A program made the position numbers and the translations under genes. Below the pieces are notes generated by a model, which did not search any database, was not told where the DNA came from, and worked only from the letters and a program-made list of their open reading frames with translations. Below, one piece after another: positions 8,823-46,140 of a stretch of 64,000 nucleotides of DNA. Source of the stretch: Candidatus Gastranaerophilales bacterium (GTDB lineage Bacteria; Cyanobacteriota; Vampirovibrionia; Gastranaerophilales; Gastranaerophilaceae); contig CALVBB010000008.1 of the NCBI GenBank assembly GCA_944325705.1, positions 1 to 64,000 on the forward strand. The letters are read 5' to 3'. Positions within the stretch are counted from its first letter, which is position 1, and each line of letters opens with the position of its first letter.

Positions 8823-8998
8823 ATGGAAAAGTCAAGTATAGCAAGGATTTCCGGGGGGGGGGGCAAGTAGTTTAAGCTCCTTAACCGGCACAGAGCAAGG
8901 GATACAGGCAGCCGAAGAGGGCAAAGCCTTAAGCTGGCGTGCATTGTTGCGGAAACTGATGGAAAGAAAATCCCCCCCTGCCCGCCTTTACAAAGTGC
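8823..8998 (+). promoter_or_regulatory. phase-variation leader of pilin 2 (G11 and C7 tracts)
   Basis: After a GGGGA ribosome-binding site, the ATG at 8823 opens ten codons that run into eleven G (8853-8863). As given, the frame ends four codons later (GGGGK, stop). With ten G the frame continues through a leader nearly identical to that of pilin 8, but stops at 9025. A second run, seven C at 8972-8978, would need one fewer C (six, as at the matching place in the pilin 8 leader) to join the pilin frame. The frames are read directly; switching is inferred. Confidence 0.7.
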
Positions 8999-30102: not shown

Positions 30103-30120
30103 TGTTTCCAAATGGAAACA
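30103..30120. promoter_or_regulatory. operator-like palindrome upstream of pilin 5
   Basis: TGTTTCCA AA TGGAAACA is a perfect inverted repeat placed between a TATAAT box (30079-30084) and the pilin ribosome-binding site AAAGGAGG (from about 30122). Binding there would block pilin transcription. Confidence 0.7.
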
Positions 30121-30135
30121 TTAAAGGAGGATAAA

Positions 30136-30836
30136 ATGAGAAATAAAGCGTTTACATTGGCAGAAGTGTTGATTACACTGGGGATAATAGGCATAGTCGC
30201 AGCAATGACGCTGCCGGTATTAACAGCAAAGTATGAGAAGGCTGAAACGGTAACCCGTTTGAAAAGAGCATATTCTCTTTTAAATCAGGGGCTTCAAAGA
30301 GCAGTGGTTGATTTCGGGGATGTTAATGACTGGCCGGATAATATTCCTTCAGAAGAGCTGATTACTATATATTTAGCTCCATCGTTTAAGGTTTTAAAAA
30401 TATATCCGAGTGCTGACAACTGGAGTAAGGCTATGTGTTATGACGGCAAAAGTGTAATCACTTCATCAGGAGTTGAAACCCAGTATGTCTGGTTTGATGG
30501 TGTACACCTTTCTATGCAAATAATACAGCGTCTATGAAATTACCTGACGGAATGTGTATTGGAATAAATAATTTCAGTAAGGAAGCTGGAGATTCTAGAA
30601 TAAATATGGTTATGGTAGATGTGAACGGGAATGCCAAAGGGCCGAATAAAGCGGGATATGATTTATTTTTCTTTATAATTAAAGGAAATGTTGTTAAACC
30701 TTATGGTTGGGATAGAACCGATGAGGATATTGTCAGTCCGTCTAAGCAAAATGCCTGTAATTTAAAAGCCACATTGGGTGGGTCTTTCTGTGCTGCAAGA
30801 ATTATGAGGGAAGGCTGGAAAATTAATTACCGTTAA
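30136..30836 (+). pseudogene. frameshifted type IV prepilin-like gene (pilin 5)
   Basis: A normal prepilin start (MRNKAFTLAEVLITLGIIG after AAAGGAGG) is open to a stop at 30537. The rest of the pilin continues in another frame to 30836, where DVNGNAKGPNKAGYDLFFF and the tail MREGWKINYR match pilin architecture. The break is near 30499-30510, at a GGTGTACA where one GT extra, or one base missing, explains the shift. It could be a decayed gene, a switchable one or a sequencing error. It is divergent from an XRE gene. Confidence 0.85.
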
Positions 30837-33603: not shown

Positions 33604-34527
33604 TTACTTAGCAGATTTTAAGAAAACGTTCCAGTAATCGCCTTCGCCTTCGGGGTTTTTGTCAGCAAGGGCATAAGCCGCGCATCCAAATTGTCTGTAT
33701 TCAGATGTATTCACCCTGCATTCTTTTGAAAAGAAATTGGCCGATGCTGTTCCAACTTCTCCAGACACATTATTTTTATTATCCTGCCCCATAGGAATAA
33801 CAAAACCGTCAGTGGTAAATACAAATAAAAATATATCCATCCCGTATCTGTTAGGATTTTTTTCACCGTTAATATCAACACATACTACAGGCCCGTTTTG
33901 ACCGGCGTTAGGAGGATCGTTAAAAGCGTAAAGTCTGCCTGAAATATCCGAGCGGAACCCTGACACATCGCAAATCATTTTAACATCTTTGCTTCCTGTA
34001 ACTGCGTGTATCGGATACGGCATTGTGTTAATCTGTGTGTTATCTTCATCATAGTCATTGTGTGTCCAGTCGCTGATTACAGAAACTCCTTTCATGTATT
34101 TAGGAAATTCGTTTAAAAATTTGTTAAGATTATTCTGTCCGTTGCTGTAAACGGTATATTCAGACACAGAAATACCGTTGTCGTTGTAGAACAGTCTTGC
34201 AACCTGATTAAGTTCAGAATAAGTTTTTTTAAATTGAGTTTGTAGTTCTTTATTCTGCTTGTCATTTACAAGAGTTGGCAGCGTCATAGCAGCGACCACC
34301 CCGATAATTCCGAGGGTGATTAAAACTTCTGCAAGTGTAAATGCGGATTTTCTGGAAGTAAAGTGTGAATAGTGAGGGGTGAAGGGGTCAACAAAGACCT
34401 CTCTCACTATGAGAGGGCAGAATTTGTTAATGAGCGATAGCGAAATTACAAATTCTGGAGAGGGTATAGCGCCCGCAATGGAAAAAGATTTAAGAAAATC
34501 CCCGCGCTTAAGTAATTGCCAGAACAC
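33604..34527 (-). CDS. type IV prepilin-like protein, phase-variable locus (pilin 6)
   Basis: The prepilin motif AFTLAEVLITLGIIG is preceded by a long leader containing two repeats (TTCAC/CTCAC unit and an EFVISLSLINKFCPL segment also before pilin 8). The tail DKNPEGEGDYWNVFLKSAK and body are closest to pilins 4 and 7. The GTG at 34527 is simply the first in this frame. The plausible start is the ATG at 34597 with AAAAGGAGG before it, separated by a G12 tract that puts it out of frame; one G fewer joins the two. There is no HTH partner. Confidence 0.85.
   Translation of the reverse strand: MFWQLLKRGDFLKSFSIAGAIPSPEFVISLSLINKFCPLIVREVFVDPFTPHYSHFTSRKSAFTLAEVLITLGIIGVVAAMTLPTLVNDKQNKELQTQFKKTYSELNQVARLFYNDNGISVSEYTVYSNGQNNLNKFLNEFPKYMKGVSVISDWTHNDYDEDNTQINTMPYPIHAVTGSKDVKMICDVSGFRSDISGRLYAFNDPPNAGQNGPVVCVDINGEKNPNRYGMDIFLFVFTTDGFVIPMGQDNKNNVSGEVGTASANFFSKECRVNTSEYRQFGCAAYALADKNPEGEGDYWNVFLKSAK
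34358..34384. repeat. TTCAC/CTCAC short repeat, copy 3
   Basis: The repeat unit in minus orientation, translated as FTPHYSHFT in the leader of pilin 6. A second repeat (34391-34469) reading EFV.SLSLINKFCPL follows on its upstream side and recurs at 45284-45341. Confidence 0.75.
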
Positions 34528-34597
34528 CTTGTTCTGAGCGGAAGTTAATCTACCCCCCCCCCCCTCTGAGTTTTGAAGCTATAGTTGTGTTTTGCAT
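34528..34597 (-). promoter_or_regulatory. start region and G12 phase-variation tract of pilin 6
   Basis: ATG at 34597 has an excellent AAAAGGAGG ribosome-binding site. Eleven codons later come twelve G (34564 down to 34553) and, in the given length, an immediate TAG. With eleven G the frame runs through to the pilin without a stop. With thirteen it closes after two further codons. Read directly from the sequence; switching in the cell is inferred. Confidence 0.75.
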
Positions 34598-37409: not shown

Positions 37410-38161
37410 TTATTTAGCGGATTTCAAAAAGTCGTTCCAGTAATCACCTTCGCCTTCCGGGTTTTTGTCTGCCAGGGCATAAGCCGCACATCCAAACTGC
37501 TGTATTTCAGAATTAGAGGCAACCTTACAGTTTTCATAAAAGAAATTGCCTGAAAAAGATGTTGAATTTGTTGAGTTATTTTTATGATCCTGCCCCATAG
37601 GAATCACAAACCCGTCAGTAGTAAATACAAATAAGAAAACGTCCATCCCGTACCTGTTAGGCTTTTTTTGTCCGTTAATGTCAACACAAACAATAGGTCC
37701 GTTTTGACCGGCAATAGCAGGAGAATCGTTAAAAGCGTAAAGTCTGCCGGCAACATCTGAGCGAAATCCTGCTATATCACAAATCATTTTGCGTTCGGTG
37801 CTTCCTTTTATTGCATATATAGGATACGGCATTGTGTCAATTTGTGTATTATCTTCGTCAGTTGTGATAAAAATTTCCTCATGTTAGCGTTTCTTGTAGC
37901 GGCATCATCACTATTTGTATATTCCGCAATAGAAACTCCGTTATCATTATAAAACAATCTCGCAATCTGATTGAGTTCGTTATAAGTTTTTTAAACTGTG
38001 TCTGCAGTTCTTTATTCTGCTTGTCATTCACAAGAGTTGGCAGCGTCATTGCAGCGACCACCCCGATAATTCCGAGGGTGATTAAAACTTCTGCAAGCGT
38101 GAACGCACTTTTACGATACGCAGCAGTAAATCCCTAGCTTATAAGTATCTTTTTCAACCAT
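37410..38161 (-). pseudogene. decayed type IV prepilin-like gene (pilin 7)
   Basis: A relative of pilins 4 and 6 with at least three lesions. The start at 38161 (GGAGG before it) reads MVEKDTYKLG and then goes out of frame before RKSAFTLAEVL. One A is missing in the AAAAAA run near 37990 (QTQFKK, then shift). Near 37860-37875 a deletion removes about 18 codons present in pilin 6 and shifts the frame again. The C-terminal 140 codons remain intact (37410-37832). It is not expressible as one pilin, unlike the single-tract loci. The divergent HTH gene at 38213 survives. Confidence 0.88.
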
Positions 38162-44788: not shown

Positions 44789-45032
44789 ATCTTGAAAATG
44801 TTACTTTTTTCGGGTACGCGCTGCTCCCGTTATGGCCTCAAAAAGTTTTTTATTACAGGTTGAAAAGAACCGAAAGATTTGATATAATTTAACATGTCAG
44901 AGTAAAACAAGTTGGACAATCTACAAATGTTTTCTTGAACACGCTTTCGTTCTGCTCCCGCTATCGTCTCGAAAAGATTTATAGATTGTCCAGAGAAAAG
45001 TAATAAAAAAATAAAGCAAAGGAGATTAAACA
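44789..45032. other. intergenic leader region of pilin 8, repeated from 8.6 kb
   Basis: No gene. The same layout as 8.6-8.82 kb: degenerate hairpin copy (about 44795-44860), TATAAT at about 44883, full hairpin (44914-44991), then AAAGGAG and the ATG at 45033. Confidence 0.7.
44914..44991. repeat. constant-loop hairpin element, copy 4
   Basis: GGACAATCTA... / ...TAGATTGTCC arms around the core (minus strand GATAGCGGGAGCAGAACGAAAGCGTG). The arms match copy 1, as expected if this leader was duplicated, with compensating and non-compensating differences in the arms. Confidence 0.8.
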
Positions 45033-45249
45033 ATGGAAAATGCAGTAAAATCAATGGTTTTCGGGGGGGGGGGCAAGTAGTTTAAGCTCCTTAACCGCCA
45101 CAGAGCAAGAGATACAGGCAACCGAGAGGTGCAAAGCCTTAAGTTGGCGTGCATTCTGGCGACGGCTGTTTGAGGAAAAATCCCCCCTAACCCAATTAAA
45201 AAAATGGGTAGTATCAAAGACCTCCCTTATAAAGGAAGGTGGCACGGAA
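45033..45249 (+). promoter_or_regulatory. start region and G11 phase-variation tract of pilin 8
   Basis: ATG at 45033 (AAAGGAG before it) opens ten codons, then eleven G (45063-45073) and a stop three codons into other sequence (GGGGK, stop). With ten G the frame is open without interruption to the pilin stop at 46140, giving a leader of about 125 residues before the prepilin motif. I traced every codon of this frame. Confidence 0.78.
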
Positions 45250-46140
45250 GTGTCGGAGGGTTTAGAAGAAAAACCCTCTCCCGAATTTGTAAATTTGCTA
45301 TCGCTCATTAACAAATTCTGCCCTCTCACAAAGAGAGAGGGCAATAGAGAACCCTTCACCCCTCACTCTTCACGCTTCACTTTCAGAAAGGCAGCCTTTA
45401 CGTTGGCAGAGGTTCTCATCACTCTCGGGATTATCGGTATAGTAGCAGCCATGACAATGCCGGCGCTGATGGCTAATCATAAAGCAAAAGAATTGGAGGT
45501 TCGATTTAAGAAAGCCCATTCTGTTATTTGGAATATTCATCAGCGTATGATTGCTGATTATGGCAGTGTTTACGCTACTTTTATACAGAAAGATGTTATT
45601 ATGAACAATAATGAGAGTGAAAAAGCCCTTCGGTACAAATATATAGAAGCATTTATGAAATATGTTAACGGCGGGAAAATTTGCACATGGGGGAATGCAA
45701 TTTTGTCCTGTATGAATAAAAGTAATCCTGTTGATTACAAAACTTATGACGGAAAAAATACGGCACATTTGACAGCAGATGCTGTTACTAACAGGGTGGT
45801 TGTTGCTCCTGACGGTATTACAATTTTCTTTGGCAACACAGAATACAGAAATAACAGAATTTATGTTGATACAAACGGGGCTCTGAAAGGACCTAACAGA
45901 TTAGGGTTTGATTTATTTGCATTAGATGTTGATGCAAATGATAAAATTATTCCGCCTAAAGCCTTTGGAGGCGGGGGCGACGATCTTGTAACTGATAGTG
46001 ATGAAACCGGTACTACTGCTGATTGCTCAATTAAACAGACAGGTAACAAGTATAACGGTTTTGGCTGCACTATTTATGCAATGAATGACCAGAATCCAGA
46101 TAATCCGGAAGTTTCTTACTGGAAAAATTTACCGAAATAA
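45250..46140 (+). CDS. type IV prepilin-like protein, phase-variable locus (pilin 8)
   Basis: Prepilin motif AFTLAEVLITLGIIG followed by NHKAKELEVRFKKAHSV and a variable domain ending DQNPDNPEVSYWKNLPK; closest to pilin 10. The GTG at 45250 is only the first candidate start in this frame, lying within a repeat (CCTCCG.CACTTC.GCCACC unit). The credible start is the ATG at 45033, out of frame by one base at the G11 tract. The leader contains the EFVNLLSLINKFCPL repeat and the FTPHSSRFT repeat, as at pilin 6. There is no HTH partner. Confidence 0.87.
   Translation: MSEGLEEKPSPEFVNLLSLINKFCPLTKREGNREPFTPHSSRFTFRKAAFTLAEVLITLGIIGIVAAMTMPALMANHKAKELEVRFKKAHSVIWNIHQRMIADYGSVYATFIQKDVIMNNNESEKALRYKYIEAFMKYVNGGKICTWGNAILSCMNKSNPVDYKTYDGKNTAHLTADAVTNRVVVAPDGITIFFGNTEYRNNRIYVDTNGALKGPNRLGFDLFALDVDANDKIIPPKAFGGGGDDLVTDSDETGTTADCSIKQTGNKYNGFGCTIYAMNDQNPDNPEVSYWKNLPK
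45353..45380. repeat. TTCAC/CTCAC short repeat, copy 5
   Basis: ACCCTTCACCCCTCACTC-type run just before the prepilin motif of pilin 8. Confidence 0.75.

Follow-up and report, generated by a model that had tools for sequence, protein, structure and literature searches.

A G tract held one base out of frame as a probable phase-variation switch of type IV pilin genes in Candidatus Gastranaerophilales

Introduction

The locus at position 45033 raises the question of whether a tract of 11 G residues, which in the assembled sequence puts a start codon one base out of frame with a type IV pilin gene, is a genetic switch, a signal for programmed frameshifting or an error of assembly, and why it should have the length that it has. 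The best-known cases of poly-G switching come from Neisseria and Campylobacter, where it affects one or few genes of a kind; Neisseria pilC, which encodes a pilus tip protein, is such a poly-G phase-variable gene. Our literature search found no paper on phase variation in Gastranaerophilales or Melainabacteria, and searches on pilins gave nothing relevant. We have analysed the locus within a window of 64,000 nt (the whole stretch of DNA under study), within its host genome (Candidatus Gastranaerophilales, 1.95 Mb; G000), whose sequence was read in the surroundings of the tracts, and among related genomes.

Results

A sequence-only reading had described a ribosome-binding site, an ATG, ten codons, a G11 tract and then a stop, and had found the frame with ten G residues free of stops as far as 46140; both descriptions agreed with what we read directly in the sequence (Table 1). 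The G11 version of the ORF from ATG 45033 comprises 15 codons, and the G10 version runs for 368 codons to a TAA at 46138–46140 and contains KAAFTLAEVLITLG. The tract is a long homopolymer in the 5′ coding part of the gene, where a change of one unit connects the ATG to the pilin. A start in the pilin frame 5′ of the tract was ruled out, as that frame has a stop at 45046–45048 and no start codon after it. The RNA fold of the 5′ region was no better than that of shuffled sequences (z 0.30).

Table 1. Coordinates of the switch leader at 45033 and of the two related leaders in the window
Feature	Position	Strand	Remarks
Same switch leader, ATG 8823 + 10 codons + G11 (8853–8863)	8823..8863	+	Precedes another pilin gene
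Related leader (second leader class), ATG 34597 + 11 codons + G12 (34553–34564)	34553..34597	−	Precedes pilin 33604–34527
Inverted repeat GGACAATCTA...TAGATTGTCC	44914..44991	+	Sequence; 5′ region, common to other copies of the same leader class
Ribosome-binding site AAAGGAG	45018..45024	+	Sequence; conserved before tract-bearing ATGs
ATG and first ten codons (MENAVKSMVF)	45033..45062	+	Leader class in about 20 loci of G000
G11 tract, proposed switch	45063..45073	+	Pilin frame requires 10 (or 13) G
15-codon ORF at assembled tract length	45033..45080	+	GGC AAG TAG after tract, TAG 45078–45080
Long leader, pilin frame	45074..45396	+	Partly dispersed repeats, 69 repeat matches in G000
Mature type IV pilin-like protein, start FTLAEVLITLG	45397..46137	+	PF07963, E 8.4e-5

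The protein behind the tract carries the pilin methylation motif, with an FTLAE start, Glu at +5 and Ala at −1, and an AlphaFold model of it, of a mean pLDDT of only 48, shows a long N-terminal helix and strands. G000 has one match over the cut-off to the prepilin peptidase family (PF01478) and five to the assembly ATPase family (PF00437). The mature pilin is 73–96 % identical to its orthologues in four sister species and in G004 (for G011 by DNA only), which share its position upstream of a Na+:alanine symporter gene, and dN/dS values of about 0.10–0.18 point to purifying selection, which argues that the gene is in use despite its out-of-frame assembly.

The leader has a different history. 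The orthologues of G001, G002, G010 and G011 lack a tract; each lies downstream of a queA-type gene and begins with a short leader of the usual kind (for example RBS-ATG-AAA-AAG-AGT-GCA-TTT). Behind the queA-type gene of G000 there is another pilin, one with the repeat leader. Long homology of the window to all five orthologues starts at 45394–45397, the end of the leader; the first ~85 bp of the mature part are 65–80 % identical to G001/G011 and the next part mostly 90–100 %. The position at which homology begins, the tractless short leaders of the four sisters and the different pilin behind the G000 queA-type gene suggest that the switch leader and the N-terminus were swapped in here, presumably through recombination within the conserved N-terminal part. 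Exchange between the pilin loci is indicated only for the 5′ leader, and the arrangement is not that of the pilE/pilS type, with silent promoterless copies and one expression locus, as every locus possesses an RBS and a start of its own. Which pilin follows the queA-type gene differs among the sister species as well (L268, on contig C15 of G000, versus L214, L215 and L213), and the chromosome seems to undergo exchange at its pilin loci.

The tract is not an isolated one. Overlapping G8 matches numbered 14 in the window against 0.30 expected from dinucleotide shuffles, of which none reached 14. Both of the other leaders in Table 1 are out of frame as assembled; with one G fewer, that at 34597 opens for 330 codons and that at 8823 still stops after 67 codons. 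Elsewhere in the window, a pilin gene at 30112–30836 that has no G tract is split between frames into two overlapping ORFs and looks frameshifted, and at 37410–38115 a pilin N-terminal motif (38044–38115, minus strand) and a C-terminal ORF (37410–37832) do not form one listed ORF and are probably parts of a broken gene. Across G000 there are 74 runs of eight or more G residues, 50 of which lie behind an RBS-ATG that is open to the tract; 39 of these 50 have a pilin N-terminus within 1.5 kb, and in 30 of the 39 exactly one tract-length class is open. In those 30 loci the 1983 leader codons of the pilin frame include not one stop, whereas the other frames have stops at 5.9 % of codons. Of 131 matches to Pfam N_methyl in G000 nearly all exceed the cut-off, and for a genome of 1.95 Mb this is an exceptionally large pilin-like repertoire.

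The leaders of G000 are of the short-leader type found in its relatives, lengthened by dispersed repeats, which occur at about 69 places in the genome and form part of the translated pilin leaders; several G000 contigs end within leader repeats or at the tract. A search against viral contigs gave no match. On contigs C1, C4, C5, C8 and C16 of G000, leaders of one main class (ATGGAAAA...) are always on the strand opposite to those of the other (ATGCAAAACACA...), as if each class kept one orientation to replication.

A search of 59 relatives found sites of the form RBS-ATG-(24–40 nt)-G8 in 24; 23 of these genomes belong to the same family as the window and the other one to a different part of the order. 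A reversed control pattern was nearly silent. Named matches to the leader and tract were all Gastranaerophilales MAGs, including Candidatus Scatousia excrementigallinarum; the rest were uncultured MAGs that carry the same leaders. Where relatives have short leaders, the tract falls within a prepilin leader of about 22 residues, giving products such as MQKIDIARVSGGGQRRTLTGKG followed by FTLAEV or MQKIGIARISGGGHLKTLTGKG followed by FTLAEVLITLG. Among 99 leaders of up to 60 residues, 75 have no ATG, GTG or TTG between the tract and FTLAEV, so that in those 75 translation must cross the tract.

Among the 156 pooled pilin tracts to which a single open frame could be assigned without ambiguity, 20 (about 13 %) were in frame. 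In most lineages (+ lineages; n=113) 87 tracts were one G too long (ON+1), 15 in frame and 11 off by the other base, and in three genera (− lineages; G018, G019 and G033; n=43) 36 were one G too short (ON−1), 5 in frame and 2 one too long; the division into + and − lineages was chosen after inspection of the data, and the members of the tract family are paralogues, so that these counts are not independent. Shuffling lengths within genomes gave 60 against the 87 observed in the + lineages, with no shuffle matching (P<2e-4), and 32 against 36 in the − lineages (P 0.005). Within G000 the phase was that typical of its lineage in 22 of 30 loci, against 10.4 when lengths were shuffled among its loci (0 of 5000 shuffles). 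A single leader class comprised, in G000 and in the sister genome G004 respectively, 14 and 12 tracts at ON+1, five and four at ON+2 and one each exactly at ON. Modal tract length follows the length that would be in frame, being 10, 11, 12 and 13 where 9, 10, 11 and 12, respectively, are required. The constraint acts on phase rather than on tract length. A mere mutational optimum of length was rejected in G000, which has G10, G11 and G12 where the in-frame length is 9, 10 and 11, respectively.

The sequence behind the tract is similarly constrained. When the assembled frame is read on past the tract, a stop follows within four codons in 91 % of cases in the + lineages and 94 % in the − lineages, against 31 and 53 %, respectively, by the same measure further downstream; in the third frame the share is close to that expected for it (47 versus 38 % in the + lineages, 17 versus 22 % in the − lineages). 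The two groups prefer opposite frames, so that the excess of stops is not explained by codon usage in the pilin frame. The out-of-frame reading thus seems to be a common state shaped by selection.

Variation in tract length among relatives, which the sequence-only reading had proposed to look for, was found in same-flank members of the family. L049 has an out-of-frame G11 where its orthologue L351 in G004 has an in-frame G12, the mature parts being 92 % identical; L042 has G12 where L333 has G11; and two neighbouring G033 genes (L245) with the same flanks have G12 and G10. For the tract at 45033 itself no length variant was found, four orthologues being tractless and the G004 contig ending before the tract.

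Tracts are also present in G000 in or before genes of other kinds, namely GT11, GT17, GT6, GT-D-like, AlgX-like, hexapeptide-transferase and amylase-like genes. Glycosyltransferase genes are classic targets of phase variation. About half of these non-pilin tracts are in frame (five in ten, by our reading, the five being G10–G12 in length), against 2 of 30 pilin tracts in the same genome (Fisher P 0.006). This contrast speaks against miscounted lengths in general and in favour of phase variation as a regular feature of this genome. The GT6-family glycosyltransferase gene L092 (G000 C21:30352) has a G14 tract in mid-gene, is out of frame as assembled and is likely to be a phase-variable surface sugar gene. 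At L043 (G000 C1:71542, minus strand) a pilin-type leader with G11 lies directly upstream of a GT11 (fucosyltransferase-like) gene, and the pilin-type leader may have moved to non-pilin genes in this way.

Discussion

We consider it probable that this type IV pilin gene is phase-variable, with the G11 tract as its switch, and that G000 has at least 39, and up to about 50, loci of this kind, for which OFF is the default and ON is one step away. Translation would start at ATG 45033 and, with G11, would end after 15 codons without producing pilin; a replication slip from G11 to G10 would join the ATG to the pilin, and prepilin peptidase would then remove the long leader before FTLAEV. With the typical gene OFF and one slip from ON, a population would consist of many small subclones, each showing a different few pilins. 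Slippage in replication, reversible switching in the population, cleavage of the leader and surface display are all steps that we infer. The sequence-only reading had proposed slipped-strand phase variation, and the position of the tract in the start region, the purifying selection on the pilin, the length differences between orthologues and the tracts of glycosyltransferase genes are in its favour; a coin-flip between ON and OFF, on the other hand, does not predict the uniform phase and the adjacent stop. Indeed, the phase is far more uniform (87/113 at ON+1; 36/43 at ON−1) than free switching would leave it. Uniform phase with an adjacent stop can be produced by selection against ON that preserves a one-step route to it, or by programmed slippage.

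Programmed frameshifting would mean that RNA polymerase or the ribosome slips with a fixed frequency on the run of G residues; a fraction of transcripts or ribosomes would then make pilin in every cell, and the stop would end the rest. The rarity of in-frame lengths and the excess of adjacent stops in the assembled frame, to the exclusion of the third frame, are what it would lead one to expect, and the phase is kept within lineages despite differing flanks, even where a change at the tract edge has shortened the run (e.g. G10 plus one other base for G11). Programmed transcriptional slippage or frameshift sites likewise combine a homopolymer, an immediate stop and a conserved phase (PMC1088944), although the bacterial slippage cases surveyed there use A/T runs and not G runs. 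We nevertheless regard this explanation as unlikely, since some of the 156 pilin tracts are in frame and others off by the other base, the tracts of sugar-transferase and large surface genes in G000 show the usual mixed phases, the 5′ region (the only part folded) carries no signal of RNA structure and the known pilus precedent is replicative (PMC9187656). Tract length also varies between close orthologues, which speaks for a switch at the level of DNA, unlike programmed slippage sites. It is likewise doubtful that the out-of-frame tract is itself the working signal and that the whole order expresses dozens of pilins by programmed slippage, of opposite sign between genera.

Miscounting of the G run by one in the assemblies, the genes simply being in frame, is improbable. 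Homopolymers are difficult to sequence, G-tract lengths in the literature have disagreed with those obtained by deep sequencing (PMC9187656), and the shortage of one G in three genera would fit a method that undercalls; yet the excess of one G is seen in MAGs from several projects and assemblers, non-pilin tracts in the same assembly are in frame significantly more often, and the stop conserved in the assembled frame points to genuine translation there. We give still less credence to a pilin start downstream of the tract, which would then merely end a regulatory short leader ORF. GTG 45250 is in the pilin frame and has an SD-like AAGGAAGG 10 nt upstream, but most short leaders offer no start codon between the tract and the pilin, and the leader frame is free of stops from the tract onwards.

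The probable phase-variation switch at 45033 has its closest parallel in Bifidobacterium breve UCC2003, also a gut commensal, in which the pilus genes bbr_0113 and bbr_1889 contain an intragenic G10–G12 tract, the assembled length is likewise out of frame and omission of one base fuses the frames at bbr_1889 (PMC9187656). A B. breve pilus gene with G10 is productive at G9, and G9 was enriched in the mouse gut (PMC9187656). The B. breve genes are unrelated, encode sortase-dependent pili and occupy one or two loci per genome, whereas here dozens of type IV pilins are concerned. Poly-G surface genes of Neisseria also have a long coding G run whose length sets the frame (phasome; PMC5953494). There the switch occurs in many unrelated genes and in that of a pilus tip protein, unlike the large pilin family described here. 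We know of no uniform out-of-frame phase for Neisseria poly-G genes. The Opa genes, about 11 in N. gonorrhoeae (PMC3745409), resemble the present family in being dispersed and switched independently. They differ in encoding outer-membrane proteins and in having only about 11 members. The switching repeats of Opa genes are pentamers.

What is new here is the out-of-frame length as a rule, the conserved stop behind the tract and the apparent swapping of a switch leader onto a pilin under selection. Within one gut bacterial family, the same switch recurs in the leaders of pilin genes, dozens of them to a 2-Mb genome and nearly all one base from ON. If our interpretation is true, each cell can display a different subset of pili, and the uniform phase offers a way to test whether selection acts on the OFF frame itself in contingency genes.
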